Source: Thermoplasmatota archaeon (GTDB lineage: Archaea; Thermoplasmatota; Thermoplasmata; Thermoplasmatales; Thermoplasmataceae). Taken from it: DNA of 64,000 nucleotides. The notes below the pieces were generated by a model. The model searched no databases and was not told the DNA's origin. It saw only the letters and a list, made by a program, of their open reading frames with translations. The stretch spans positions 1 through 64,000 of the forward strand of contig JAMDCA010000020.1 of NCBI GenBank assembly GCA_023489435.1. The letters run 5' to 3'. Within the stretch, counting starts at the first letter, position 1. Each line of letters opens with the position of its first letter. Of the stretch, positions 3,215 to 8,156 are shown piece by piece. Position numbers and translations under genes: made by a program.

Positions 3215-4024
3215 CTATGGGCTGAAACAGCACAAGGGGTTATCGAAGTACGCCTCTGACATCTGAATTAAAACACGATCCCTTGTAAGTATTGCGGACA
3301 TTCCATTGCTGGAATTCATACCAGAGACAGTCAAGAGTCGCCCATCAGCCAACAGCAACCATGTATCGCAACATTGGGGTGACAATACAGACAAGTTGAA
3401 ATTCCTGCTACTATCTTCGGTTAGTTTATCAAATCCATTTTGGGGCATTGCTATTTTTATTTTGGCTCCCCGCAGTTTTGCTTCAAGAAGTTGTTCACGG
3501 ATAGTGGTGAACTTGCTGAAATCTGGCAGGATAATCATTATTTCATGCTTTGCCGAAAGAAGCATTTCCTTCATTTTCGAGATTATGTTCTTTGTTCCTT
3601 TCACTACATACGCTATTTCGATTCCATTATCCTCCGTGTGGTTCCCATTCATTTTCGTCCACACTTCCTGAAGTTGAGCCTCAATATTTTCACCGATCTT
3701 GAGACCATTTTCATACCTGTTTCTCAAAACCGACTTCAGTTCTGCAATAAATGGTGCGGGGGCAGTAGCCCGGTAGGTTTTGGGCACACCATACTGCACC
3801 TCAATCATGTTCAATTTTAGTGCATTTTCTATTACACCGTAAACCTTCGAGTCCGGGATACCAGTGATTTCGCACAACCTCGATGCAGACACCCCCGGTT
3901 CCAAAAGCAAAGCAAGGTAGATTCTCCCCTCATTCAGGGGAATTTTTACTTCCAGCATCTGCGGAAGGATATTCTGAACCAGTTTACGGTAACTAATGAC
4001 CTCTAATTCATCCGTTTTTTTCAC
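3215..4024 (-). CDS. TrmB-family transcriptional regulator with Cys pairs, possibly arsenic-responsive
   Basis: A 269-residue regulator. Residues about 25-95 form a TrmB-type winged helix (EGRIYLALLLEPGVSASRLC..TGIPDSKVYGVI). Residues about 110-269 resemble the TrmB/phospholipase-D-like effector domain. Two adjacent-cysteine pairs, Cys218-Cys219 (PQCCD) and Cys265-Cys266 (LCCFSP, five residues from the end), lie in the effector half and could bind a soft metalloid such as As(III). The gene is divergent from arsM across 78 bases, which suggests local control of arsM. Family assignment is firm; the ligand is inference. Confidence 0.75.
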   Translation of the reverse strand: MKKTDELEVISYRKLVQNILPQMLEVKIPLNEGRIYLALLLEPGVSASRLCEITGIPDSKVYGVIENALKLNMIEVQYGVPKTYRATAPAPFIAELKSVLRNRYENGLKIGENIEAQLQEVWTKMNGNHTEDNGIEIAYVVKGTKNIISKMKEMLLSAKHEIMIILPDFSKFTTIREQLLEAKLRGAKIKIAMPQNGFDKLTEDSSRNFNLSVLSPQCCDTWLLLADGRLLTVSGMNSSNGMSAILTRDRVLIQMSEAYFDNPLCCFSP

Positions 4025-4102
4025 TTTAACTCATCTCTACTTATAGTATTAGTAAGAGAATCAATATATATATAATTACTACTACTTTGAGTAAGTGGTA
4101 CT
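4025..4102. promoter_or_regulatory. Divergent promoter region of the TrmB-type gene and arsM
   Basis: The 78 bases contain an A/T run (about 4062-4076, ATATATATAATTA) about 27-40 bases before the arsM ATG. On the other strand a TACTAATACTATAAG stretch lies about 25 bases before the regulator start, so both transcripts may be leaderless. Several AGTA/TACT tetramers are repeated here and could be regulator half-sites. Confidence 0.5.
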
Positions 4103-4909
4103 ATGACAGAGAATCTAAAACAAGCCGTCATAAAAAGATATTCAGAAAGGATAAAGGCAAAATCAAGCTGTTGTGGCGAGTCAGCTGGCTGTTCTTCAGG
4201 ATCAGGTTCCCAAAAACAGGTGGAAGCATCTGAAAGCAGTTGCTGCGCGGGCTCCTCTTGCACGTCAGACGTGCAATATGGTGAGTTGAAAGACAAACTG
4301 GGGGATGTCAGCGGGCAGTCGTTTGGGTGTGGTAACCCTATAGGCCAATCCTCAGTTATGATTGGGGATACTGTAGTTGATTTGGGATCTGGTGCTGGAC
4401 TTGACTGTATAAGAGCGGTTTCCAGGGTTGGTGCTACTGGTAAGGTTGTGGGTGTAGACATGTCTGAAGAGATGATTGCCAAAGCTACTCAAAATGTAAG
4501 AAAAATGGGATTAGATGAACAGGTTTCTTTTGTTAAAGGAGATATTGAAGATATTCCCCTAACAGACAATTTTGCTACACTTGTAATCAGCAATTGCGTC
4601 CTTGCACTGGCGCCAAACAAGCAAAAAGTATTCAACGAGGTTTACAGGATTCTAAAACCGGGGGGTAGGTTCATAATCTCAGATGTAGTGAGTGCAGAAA
4701 ACATTCCACAAGAGATGAAGGATGATGTAGAATTGTTTTCAAACTGCATTTCAGGGGCGTCTCAGGTGGATGAATACTATAAGGCTATTCTGGCTGCAGG
4801 TTTTACCAATGTTGAAGAGCTGGAAAGACAAAACTACGGTTCTCTTGATGCCGGTGGAGTGGGCATAAGTTTGTTCAGCATAACCGTCATGGGGTACAAG
4901 TACACGTAG
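4103..4909 (+). CDS. arsM: Arsenite S-adenosylmethionine methyltransferase
   Basis: Cytosolic SAM-dependent enzyme that methylates As(III). The 268-residue protein has the Rossmann motif VVDLGSGAGLDC (91-102), and the three catalytic-type cysteines of ArsM are recognisable: Cys76 (SFGCGNP), Cys165 (SNCVL) and Cys215 (FSNCISGA). The N-terminus adds further cysteines (23, 24, 30, 47, 48, 53) in a Ser/Gly/Cys-rich stretch, as in several archaeal and bacterial ArsM proteins; these may deliver or sense arsenic. It is divergent from a Cys-pair TrmB regulator, which supports an arsenic-detoxification unit. No arsenite pump is visible in the window. Confidence 0.88.
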   Translation: MTENLKQAVIKRYSERIKAKSSCCGESAGCSSGSGSQKQVEASESSCCAGSSCTSDVQYGELKDKLGDVSGQSFGCGNPIGQSSVMIGDTVVDLGSGAGLDCIRAVSRVGATGKVVGVDMSEEMIAKATQNVRKMGLDEQVSFVKGDIEDIPLTDNFATLVISNCVLALAPNKQKVFNEVYRILKPGGRFIISDVVSAENIPQEMKDDVELFSNCISGASQVDEYYKAILAAGFTNVEELERQNYGSLDAGGVGISLFSITVMGYKYT

Positions 4910-4964
4910 TCTCAGCCTATTGTCGGAACGAGAAATGCAACAAAAATAAAGGTGTAAATAATGT

Positions 4965-5849
4965 TTATTTGTAAACTCCAACAGAGTGGCTCTCTGGCAG
5001 GAAAGTGTAAAGCTTTTGCATTTTTTCATCAAAGGTCAGGGTGTGGCTTCCATATTCTGTTCGAATTTCTTGTACCTTTTCAAGAGTTTTTCCGTTGAAA
5101 ACCTGCACTACACCAGGTTCACCAATGCTGCAATAAACAAGGTCTTGCTTCCTGTTATACCAGAGGACATCCGGAGCCCCTTCCAATTTAGCCTTTTGGC
5201 CAATTTTCATTTCCTTTAAATCGATGGTAACTAGAGTGGCGTCGTCACATGCAACAAAAGCGGTCTTGCCTTCAATAACAAGTCCATGGGGGCCCTTTTG
5301 ATCAACGTCGAAGAATCTGGTCTTTTTGAAGTCCTTCGCGGATATAAATTCCAGACCTGGAGGGTCCATTATGTTGACAATGTACTCGTCACTTTCTTTC
5401 CTGTAGGTGCTCCATCTTGGTCTTCCGCTGAGGTGAACAGAAGCAATTATTTCACCAGTTTTCTGGTTGTGAAATCTTGCCTGGTTGTCACCGACATCAG
5501 CAGTCATGAGAATCTCCCTTGCACCGTCAACTGCTAATCCATTGGGTTTCTTCCCGGTTTTAAATTTCCTGACTGCTTCCAGGGAAACAGGGTCTATAGC
5601 AAGAATGTGCCCTTCAGCTCTTGAGGCTGCAAAGATTTTTTTCGTAACCGGATCAAACACAACCCCGCTTCCGCCAGCACAGTCAGGTATGGTTTTTATC
5701 CACTTGTCTTCTTTGCCGTCAAGCACTTCAACAGTTCCGGAACTGGTATGTGCCACAAAGACTCTGCCGGACGTCTGATCAACATCGGCATGGTCGAACT
5801 CGCATTCATTCTCCTCTGGAAGTTCCTTTCTTATTTTAAAATTCAGCAA
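4965..5849 (-). CDS. YncE/NHL-like beta-propeller protein
   Basis: A 294-residue protein made of repeated blades of about 40 residues (for example GRVFVAHTSSGTVEVLD, KKIFAASRAEGHILAIDP, KTAFVACDDATLVTIDL), typical of the YVTN/YncE seven-bladed propeller. No signal peptide is seen, so it is probably cytosolic. Start is TTG at 5849. It follows the ChrB-domain gene by 31 bases on the same strand and is probably cotranscribed. Function is unknown; a role in metal or redox stress is suggested only by its partner. Confidence 0.72.
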   Translation of the reverse strand: MLNFKIRKELPEENECEFDHADVDQTSGRVFVAHTSSGTVEVLDGKEDKWIKTIPDCAGGSGVVFDPVTKKIFAASRAEGHILAIDPVSLEAVRKFKTGKKPNGLAVDGAREILMTADVGDNQARFHNQKTGEIIASVHLSGRPRWSTYRKESDEYIVNIMDPPGLEFISAKDFKKTRFFDVDQKGPHGLVIEGKTAFVACDDATLVTIDLKEMKIGQKAKLEGAPDVLWYNRKQDLVYCSIGEPGVVQVFNGKTLEKVQEIRTEYGSHTLTFDEKMQKLYTFLPESHSVGVYK

Positions 5850-5880
5850 CAGTATCTTTTCCCTTCAAGTTAACGAGATT

Positions 5881-6348
5881 TCACTTCTTGGTATGTTCGA
5901 GTTTTGCCTTTCCTTCCATTTTACCTTTGACATAAGCGTACATGGCATCGTAGAAAGGAAACTGTAATTTCATGTTCTCGTGGTCATCCTCTGCAATTTC
6001 TCTGAATCCAAGGGCTGCAGCTTCCAGTCCTGCTGACTCAGGAGGGGCATCTGGCATGTTTGCATCAGCTCCCCTTACAATCCTGGCAAATTCAAGAAGG
6101 GCTGCGTCTTTGAGGTTATATTTCTTTATGACGGCATCAAAGCTCACGTATTCTTTTCCATTTTCTTCATAATGGAACAATTCTGCCCCAGGTGTGTCAA
6201 ATGCAATGGCATTTTCTTTCTTAGCTGTTTCTAATACTTTTTCTTTCGGCACAAAAAGAAATACCGGATCTTTATCCACAAATCTTGAGATTACCCAAGG
6301 GCAAGCAATTCTGTCAACCTTGGCCTTTTCTCTAGTTACCCACTTCAT
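5881..6348 (-). CDS. ChrB-domain (chromate resistance-type) protein
   Basis: Matches the C-terminal domain of ChrB: the opening MKWVTREKAKVDRIACPWVI, then FLFVPKEKV, FDTPGAELFHY, FDAVIKKY, ARIVRGAD and EDDHENM are the conserved blocks. In bacteria ChrB is linked to chromate resistance, with the C-terminal domain implicated in chromate reduction or sensing. I chose ATG 6348 because the conserved domain begins there; an in-frame start 18 bases upstream adds only MLAVIL. No ChrA transporter is present, so the substrate here is open. Confidence 0.78.
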   Translation of the reverse strand: MKWVTREKAKVDRIACPWVISRFVDKDPVFLFVPKEKVLETAKKENAIAFDTPGAELFHYEENGKEYVSFDAVIKKYNLKDAALLEFARIVRGADANMPDAPPESAGLEAAALGFREIAEDDHENMKLQFPFYDAMYAYVKGKMEGKAKLEHTKK

Positions 6349-6609
6349 CAGAATCACTGCCAACATTTTTCTTTTTAATAAAATACTTTGTGTATTCCGG
6401 AAACACTACAAAATTCTACAGGAAAAGTTAAGCATGAAAGCGGTTGCTCTGTGAATCTAATTTCAAAATCTGTGGCCCGGTGGAAAACTAAGCTATCGCG
6501 TACTTATAATTATGAGGTTTTCACTTATTTATCCATCAGATGGAGATTCGCAACTCCACAATGGGCACGTTTCACGGATAGGGTTGCACTCCCGGGGAGC
6601 ATTGATGCT

Positions 6610-7152
6610 ATGTCTGCAGAGCAGCAAGGGAGAAAGAGTGGGTTGCATAACGCTTTATTCTATGGGATATCGCTAATGCTCTCGCTCATAATCATCGTGG
6701 TTTCAACCGCAGTTTTCCTGGTATTTATATATCTGGAAGGCAGTGTGCCAGATAGTTTCTTCCTCCTCTATCTTGGGGTTTTGGCAACCAATCTGGCGGT
6801 CTCCGTGGTTTCCACCAGGCAGCTCATAGCGTTGATCCCGGCTCTATCTCTTCTGAATAAAACTTCTGAAGTCGAATATCCTCCCGGAAAGAAGAGTGGA
6901 ACCGCAATCTATAGCCCGGCCCCCATAGCTTACAATGATGAGAGATATTTCACAGAGGCTGAAATAGAAATCATAGAACTCCTCAGGAAAAACAATAACA
7001 GATTGCTGCAGAGCAGGCTAGTTTCATCTGTTGGAGCCTCCAAGGCGACCGTATCCAGAGTTATCTCTTCTCTGGAAAGCAAAGGGGTAATAGTAAAGCT
7101 GAGAAAGGGCGTAACCAACGAGATAATTCTTTCAGAAACCAATTTCAAATAG
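6610..7152 (+). CDS. Membrane-anchored winged-helix transcriptional regulator
   Basis: A 180-residue protein. Two hydrophobic segments (about 17-45 and 50-75, LSLIIIVVSTAVFLVFIYL and FFLLYLGVLATNLAVSVV) anchor it in the membrane. A linker then leads to a C-terminal winged helix (about 115-175: LTEAEIEIIELLRK-like helix, VSSVGASKATVSRVISSLESKG). I place the start at ATG 6610 because the in-frame sequence upstream lacks protein-like character and GGGGAG lies before it. It precedes a SHOCT protein and a blue copper protein, and a perfect palindrome sits immediately downstream at 7157-7172, suggesting it controls that pair. Specific ligand unknown. Confidence 0.7.
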   Translation: MSAEQQGRKSGLHNALFYGISLMLSLIIIVVSTAVFLVFIYLEGSVPDSFFLLYLGVLATNLAVSVVSTRQLIALIPALSLLNKTSEVEYPPGKKSGTAIYSPAPIAYNDERYFTEAEIEIIELLRKNNNRLLQSRLVSSVGASKATVSRVISSLESKGVIVKLRKGVTNEIILSETNFK

Positions 7153-7156
7153 TTTC

Positions 7157-7195
7157 CTGAAACATGTTTCAGCCATTGGTTAAGAACTGTTTCAG
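7157..7195. promoter_or_regulatory. Perfect 16-bp palindrome with extra half-site (candidate operator)
   Basis: CTGAAACATGTTTCAG at 7157-7172 is its own reverse complement over all 16 bases. A second TGTTTCAG half lies at 7188-7195, and GGAAACATG (7204-7212) overlaps the start codon of the next gene in the opposite half-site orientation. The array lies in the 57-base gap between the regulator and the SHOCT/cupredoxin genes, overlapping the region where the promoter is expected. Confidence 0.65.
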
Positions 7196-7209
7196 CATTT
7201 ATTGGAAAC

Positions 7210-7569
7210 ATGGAGAAAAAAGCAGAGAATCTGGTCTGGGTTCTTGTAGGGCTTGTCGCCGTAATTGCAGCAGTTGCAATTATCACCTCTGTTTTGTTTG
7301 GTGGCAGATACACAAATGGAACATTCGGCCCATACGGAATGATGGGGGGATATTATGGCATGGGTTTGATAATGCCCATCATCGGGGTAATATCAGTTAT
7401 TTTTGTAATTGTATTTGTATTTTTCATACTGGATGCTCTCAGAGTGTCAGATCGGCATTTTGACAGTGCTTACAGCTTCAGGGCTGAGGAAATTGCCAGA
7501 GAGAGATTTGCAAAAGGGGAAATTTCAGAGCAGGAATACTATGCAATGTTGGAAAAGTTAAGGAAATAG
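7210..7569 (+). CDS. Small membrane protein with C-terminal SHOCT domain
   Basis: A 119-residue protein with two membrane segments (about 9-30 and 52-76) joined by a Gly/Tyr/Met-rich loop (YGMMGGYYGMG), which could contact copper through its Met residues. It ends in a SHOCT-type domain (about 88-118: ARERFAKGEISEQEYYAML), a short helical module common in bacterial and archaeal membrane proteins. It lies 8 bases before the blue copper gene and is surely cotranscribed with it. Role unknown; assembly or anchoring of the copper protein is a reasonable guess. Confidence 0.72.
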   Translation: MEKKAENLVWVLVGLVAVIAAVAIITSVLFGGRYTNGTFGPYGMMGGYYGMGLIMPIIGVISVIFVIVFVFFILDALRVSDRHFDSAYSFRAEEIARERFAKGEISEQEYYAMLEKLRK

Positions 7570-7577
7570 GTGTTTAG

Positions 7578-8156
7578 ATGAACAAACACAGGTTGTTTGG
7601 GTTAATTTCCGTGGCTGGACTAGCACTGGTTGTAATAATTTCTGCATCATACATCTGGGAATTCTCAGGTTATGCCAACGCACAGAATACTGGATTCATG
7701 ACAGGTGCAGAACTGTCTTCTCTCAATGCAAGTCCACCCGGCATATACGTTTCGCATTCCAATTCAACAATTTACCTTAACAATTCGGTGGATCTGCCGG
7801 TAATGATGGGGCCAATGGATGCCCCGAGCATGTACAGTTTTGAAATCCTCGGGATGTTTAATCCCACTTTAACAGTAATGCAGGGAACCACCCTAGATTT
7901 CACCGTGATTAATGTGGATACAGACTCTTACCACAATTTTGTGATGAGCCACTCAGGGCCGCCCTACTACATGGGTAGCATGATGCAAAGTTCTGGCTTG
8001 ATGAATAACATGAATTTCCTGCCACCTGTACATTCAGGCAGTTATGCCTATTCCAACCTGAGTTATAGCTTCTCCACACCTGGAACCTACTGGTATCTTT
8101 GCACTTATCCGGGGCATGCAGCCGAGGGAATGTATGGAAAAATCGTTGTAGTTTGA
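7578..8156 (+). CDS. Rusticyanin/sulfocyanin-like blue copper protein
   Basis: A 192-residue protein with an N-terminal membrane anchor or signal (about 7-26), a Ser/Thr/Asn-rich extracytoplasmic region and a cupredoxin fold. Type 1 copper ligands are all visible: His119 (DSYHNF), Cys175, His180 and Met185 in CTYPGHAAEGM. The C-x4-H-x4-M spacing equals that of rusticyanin (138/143/148 in the known protein) and sulfocyanin. It probably carries electrons on the outer face of the membrane at low pH, to a terminal oxidase or from iron/sulfur oxidation. No oxidase genes are present nearby. Confidence 0.85.
   Translation: MNKHRLFGLISVAGLALVVIISASYIWEFSGYANAQNTGFMTGAELSSLNASPPGIYVSHSNSTIYLNNSVDLPVMMGPMDAPSMYSFEILGMFNPTLTVMQGTTLDFTVINVDTDSYHNFVMSHSGPPYYMGSMMQSSGLMNNMNFLPPVHSGSYAYSNLSYSFSTPGTYWYLCTYPGHAAEGMYGKIVVV

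Follow-up and report, generated by a model that had tools for sequence, protein, structure and literature searches.

A candidate membrane-anchored winged-helix regulator with a predicted operator at a SHOCT–rusticyanin locus in Thermoplasmata

Organization of the locus

The window, that is, the whole 64,000-nucleotide stretch of DNA analysed here, comes from a Thermoplasmata draft genome, whose closest relative as judged by the winged-helix (WH) protein is Thermoplasmata archaeon YP3.bin51. The + strand carries three genes in tandem, which encode WH (6610–7152), a SHOCT membrane protein (7210–7569), and a rusticyanin (7578–8156). This confirmed the three-gene locus, with every gene where the initial annotation had placed it.

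WH is a predicted membrane-anchored regulator of 180 aa, with homologues at the equivalent position in relatives. Its start codon is ATG 6610; a longer open reading frame from TTG 6388 was discarded, as relatives begin near ATG 6610. Two N-terminal transmembrane (TM) helices are followed by a linker and a C-terminal winged helix, which matched DUF7343 in Pfam (E 1.3e-12; 47.9 bits, above the cut-off of 27.6). HTH_24 was also matched, and MarR-like domains were matched more weakly than DUF7343. Hydrophobicity peaked at residues 22–40 and 49–67, and the AlphaFold model showed long helices at 5–43 and 48–74, then a linker modelled with low confidence and, at 116–174, a canonical winged helix. As expected, the model resembled MarR/ArsR-type winged helices. 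The recognition-helix region, residues 144–158 (SKATVSRVISSLESK; 7039–7083, + strand), corresponds to a helix modelled at 145–157. The Pfam domain search returned no match to the TRASH metal-binding domain in WH.

The SHOCT protein (119 aa) has two TM helices flanking a Met/Gly/Tyr loop (residues 30–53, TFGPYGMMGGYYGMG). Its match to the SHOCT domain (PF09851) fell under the Pfam cut-off (22.2 vs 27 bits, E 1.1e-4), and we call it SHOCT-like because of the C-terminal position of the domain and because its hairpin is conserved, the R-x-A-x-G-x-I pattern being retained in the 37 aligned sequences. Its structure model was of low confidence (pLDDT 68.5, pTM 0.30) and was left out of the fold comparison. 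We know of no established biochemical role for the SHOCT domain. The third gene product (192 aa, with an N-terminal hydrophobic segment) matched the NCBIfam rusticyanin model TIGR03095 with an E of 3.8e-61 and 205.6 bits, above the curated cut-off of 146.7. Alignment to a solved rusticyanin bore out the earlier claim that all four type 1 copper ligands (His, Cys, His, and Met) are present, namely, H119, C175, H180, and M185.

Upstream of WH, the region 3215–6366 encodes an arsenite-methyltransferase-like protein whose N-terminal part is rich in Cys, a protein with a ChrB C-terminal domain, a beta-propeller protein, and a TrmB-like regulator, and is possibly a metal(loid) resistance neighbourhood.

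WH and SHOCT form the conserved core

Searches with WH and with the rusticyanin model covered 61 related genomes, with gene calling around the matches. Further scans of named genomes, partially overlapping with these 61, and of the whole phylum gave the same picture. The SHOCT gene lay directly 3′ of WH in almost every WH locus of the order and in one locus from another family of the class. The complete WH-SHOCT-rusticyanin order, which the initial annotation had proposed looking for in other acidophilic archaea, recurred in about 20 loci from many genera, including one outside the order (L220 in G312, a different family of the class); the genes are thus linked in relatives and make up a conserved locus of acidophilic archaea. 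About 30 further loci carried the WH-SHOCT pair without rusticyanin, often adjoining a CPC-type copper ATPase, and a few had SHOCT-rusticyanin without an adjacent WH (G020, G021, G028, and G013). Since more loci lacked rusticyanin than had it, we consider WH-SHOCT as the conserved core and rusticyanin as a frequent third member. Hence, the earlier view of rusticyanin as the core target did not hold: the constant target is SHOCT.

Some variation was noticed within the module. The Met pair of the SHOCT loop is absent in G014 and G030. A cupredoxin was suspected from its motif next to the G014 pair and rejected, the gene matching no NCBIfam family. G028 has two SHOCT genes with an identical operator; the copy adjoining WH retains the loop Met pair, and the copy before rusticyanin (L085:4256-4612) has lost it. 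In two WH relatives from other families of the class (L223:1171-1752 and L222:1498-2070), no SHOCT gene was detected nearby, and Met and His residues occur in the regulator's own inter-TM loop (DHMGMWGNHTS and GRGHWMTGEDS, respectively). It looks as if the role of the SHOCT loop were built into these regulators.

A palindrome precedes SHOCT genes

A putative operator, the exact 16-base palindrome CTGAAACATGTTTCAG, lies at 7157–7172 and is strongly conserved between species. Its core, TGAAACATGTTTCA (7158–7171), begins 52 bases before the SHOCT start codon. With two mismatches or fewer allowed, 0.06 matches to the 16-base palindrome were expected in the window. A TGAAA-N4-TTTCA site was found upstream of 41 of the 45 SHOCT genes examined, as against 2.4% of random 122-base stretches from the same loci, a background that includes the sites themselves and is thereby inflated. 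In types A and B, the site starts at −50 to −52, with a single exception at −45, and is followed by an 8-base spacer and a TTAA box. The corresponding element of the window, TTAAGAA (7180–7186, + strand), lies 8 bases past the palindrome core and 24–30 bases before the SHOCT start, and is presumably the TATA box. The spacing between palindrome and TTAA box is invariant in both operator types. A scan with bacterial-type promoter and terminator models, which are not applicable to archaeal promoters, gave nothing that clearly exceeded shuffled sequences.

We then looked at how exclusive the site is. Exact TGAAACATGTTTCA occurred 12 times in 20 genomes and exact TGAAATGCATTTCA nine times in 12 genomes, where about 0.2 exact matches were expected by chance. 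When their positions were compared with those of SHOCT genes, all 21 exact sites preceded one. As a matter of fact, one SHOCT gene of G021 was first found via its palindrome. The one-mismatch palindromes elsewhere in the genomes were mostly inside unrelated genes, a few being intergenic, and none was accepted as a target. The initial annotation had named binding to unrelated sites as evidence that would count against it; in silico, the site proved specific to SHOCT promoters. As had been proposed, the palindrome before the SHOCT-rusticyanin promoter is very probably where the membrane-tethered regulator acts.

Two other elements were noticed. A possible secondary operator in the CAGAAACCAATTTC region (7135–7148, + strand) overlaps the 3′ end of WH and precedes the main site by about 24 bases. 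TGAAACC[AT]ATTTCA occurs at equal distance in several relatives, and coding constraint may account for this secondary site. Besides, positions 7189–7199 carry a conserved TTTCAGCAT element, downstream of the TATA box and ahead of the start codon, that recurs in relatives of both operator types, its conserved TTTCA lying 23 bases past that of the palindrome. This element might serve as another half-site or as part of the core promoter.

The operator core varies with the recognition helix

WH proteins whose recognition helix opens with SKA and whose wing carries GVTN are paired with the operator TGAAAC..GTTTCA, and those with S[GAS][PA]T and GMTN with TGAAAT..ATTTCA. Later loci conformed, L210 and L220 being SKA with a C-type operator and L217 and L219 being SPAT with a T-type operator. 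The two paralogues of G016 include one pair of each kind, and each has its own operator type. Moreover, SHOCT genes located away from WH in G020, G021, and G028 match the operator type of the WH of the same genome. L140/L209 are off-code (SSAT with GVTN; TGAAAGCAATTTCA), and the deeper f3 family does not fit the code cleanly. These rows are related by descent and are not a tally of independent events. The covariation is nevertheless the strongest evidence that WH itself would read the palindrome.

Another possibility was that a soluble regulator reads the palindrome and that WH merely travels with the genes. The binding of WH to the palindrome is deduced from sequence comparison, and the G021 and G028 SHOCT genes with sites far from WH would suit a soluble factor. 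However, the operator core tracks the WH recognition helix across genera, between the G016 paralogues, and in the unlinked cases, which makes such a factor very unlikely. The case for direct binding by WH is strong. Local control is well supported by the placement of the site, its exclusivity for SHOCT genes, and the tracking of the recognition helix by the operator core. Thus, WH appears to be dedicated to one promoter, in a pairing conserved across many species in which the presumed site changes with the regulator.

Genomic context points to copper in many loci

Directly upstream of WH in G018, G019, G007, G025, and G035 is a gene for a P-type ATPase that combines an N-terminal YHS domain with the copper-pump motif CPC. 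In other genomes, a CPC-type YHS ATPase lies within ~6 kb of WH, several genera being concerned overall. Such an ATPase was within 10 kb in about 12 of 36 genomes (P ~1e-13 in a rough binomial estimate that ignores relatedness). The copper ATPase of the window's own genome is on another contig. Nor is the linked pump always of the copper type: the second WH gene of G005, truncated at the contig end, comes after a P-type ATPase that has TPC in place of CPC (L075:2571-4472). Incidentally, the WH-adjacent copper ATPase at L071:5267-7331 (= L131, E-plasma scaffold KI542675.1) is split into two overlapping frames, through either a frameshift or an assembly error.

In Acidithiobacillus ferrivorans, both rusticyanins are up 7.6- and 22-fold with copper (PMC7463520). 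SHOCT genes had been noted next to a copper island of Thermoplasmatales (PMC5498576), and one SHOCT protein of Haloferax is silver-induced (PMC10694973). The rusticyanin gene of Cuniculiplasma divulgatum S5 shares a genomic island with genes for metal ATPases and metallochaperones (PMC5155288); G017 resembles this strain in gene content and position.

Copper is not a universal context, and some loci lack any metal context. It could be that the WH-SHOCT module serves membrane stress or the envelope in general, with no relation to metals, and that its copper neighbours reflect shared genomic islands. The f3 pairs, which adjoin the housekeeping genes for ribosomal protein L3 and ribonucleotide reductase and lack copper context, would fit this reading, as would the SHOCT loops devoid of the Met pair and the island location of the S5 locus (PMC5155288). 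Yet, copper-ATPase neighbours recur in several genera and a blue copper protein is the repeated third gene, so that we regard a metal-unrelated module as rather unlikely.

A further reading keeps WH as the regulator of the operon but takes redox state, oxygen, or ferrous iron as the signal, with rusticyanin carrying electrons to a terminal oxidase. It recalls the role of rusticyanin as the electron carrier of iron oxidation in Acidithiobacillus (PMC3750248), and the window's genome does carry a heme-copper oxidase. Against this, no iron oxidation occurs in C. divulgatum S5 despite its rusticyanin (PMC5155288). G010 (Thermoplasma sp. FL) and G028, from the same genus, have rusticyanin and gave no COX1 match at E 1e-20, whereas G007, G018, G019, G025, and G033 have COX1 and no rusticyanin. 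In addition, many genomes have WH-SHOCT but lack rusticyanin. We hold this reading to be distinctly improbable. Iron or redox sensing is therefore weaker, given Cuniculiplasma rusticyanin without iron oxidation and Thermoplasma relatives without heme-copper oxidase, while copper sensing by the module is plausible. The redox part of the initial suggestion, taken as a reading of the state of the electron carrier, was left unsupported; the context suggests copper handling in many loci and no metal in some.

A proposed mechanism

Collectively, we propose that WH is probably a dedicated TM one-component regulator of the adjacent promoter. Its two N-terminal helices would anchor the protein in the cytoplasmic membrane, and the winged helix at its C terminus would bind the TGAAA-N4-TTTCA palindrome just upstream of the TATA box, presumably as a dimer. 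From there, it would control transcription of SHOCT and, where present, of the rusticyanin gene that follows. We favour activation over repression, with moderate confidence, because the palindrome is directly upstream of the presumed BRE/TATA region, a usual position for archaeal activators. The signal might be envelope copper, with SHOCT as a copper-handling partner or feedback sensor, and rusticyanin might be an extracytoplasmic copper or electron carrier produced on demand. For this signal and these roles taken together, our confidence is moderate to weak.

A more specific version makes SHOCT the sensor: its extracytoplasmic Met/Gly/Tyr loop would detect envelope copper and gate WH, whose sole target would be the promoter of its own sensor, rusticyanin having been recruited as an output. 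We put this forward tentatively, as doubtful. If true, it would amount to a two-protein archaeal membrane copper switch.

To our knowledge, archaeal genomes commonly encode membrane-tethered transcription factors, but the target, operator, or signal is known for few of them. Here, one family arrives, all from sequence, with a predicted operator, a single target gene, and natural specificity variants. What appears to be new is a variant of TM one-component regulator for which operator and target could be predicted and a copper signal is plausible. The SHOCT domain thereby gains a concrete genetic partner. The data also suggest that these archaea may use rusticyanin in copper handling, instead of or besides iron oxidation.

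Comparison with known systems

A search of open-licence papers found none on SHOCT together with rusticyanin, none on DUF7343, and none describing the module. Several known systems share part of its features. The rus operon of Acidithiobacillus ferrooxidans has a rusticyanin gene under dedicated control, as is predicted for the locus studied here, but the archaeal operon includes neither cytochromes nor an oxidase. The AMD plasma genomes likewise have no other genes of the A. ferrooxidans rus operon (PMC3750248). As for the TRASH copper regulators and copper islands of Thermoplasmatales, WH too has copper ATPases and TRASH proteins in its vicinity in several genomes (PMC5498576), a separate TRASH regulator being near WH in G016, G017, and G034. 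WH differs from these regulators in having no TRASH domain and in being membrane-bound.

With its winged helix and two TM helices, WH fits the definition of transmembrane transcription regulators, that is, a DNA-binding domain with at least one TM region (PMC10269533). Among the partnered members of this class, ToxR-ToxS and TcpP-TcpH also combine a membrane-tethered DNA-binding domain with a small membrane protein encoded next door. The winged-helix type and the topology differ, however, and the partner gene of WH is also the regulated gene. The likeness of WH-SHOCT to ToxR-ToxS is one of gene pairing and shared membrane location. Finally, ArnR and ArnR1 of Sulfolobus acidocaldarius are archaeal membrane-bound one-component regulators with two TM helices, like WH (PMC6396743). 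In ArnR, the HTH is N-terminal, the TM helices are C-terminal, and both a HAMP-like domain and a sensor domain are present (PMC6396743), whereas WH is arranged in the opposite order, lacks a sensor domain, and is accompanied by a SHOCT gene as partner. Yet ArnR/ArnR1 use inverted repeats upstream of the core promoter of the neighbouring operon (PMC6396743), as we propose for WH.
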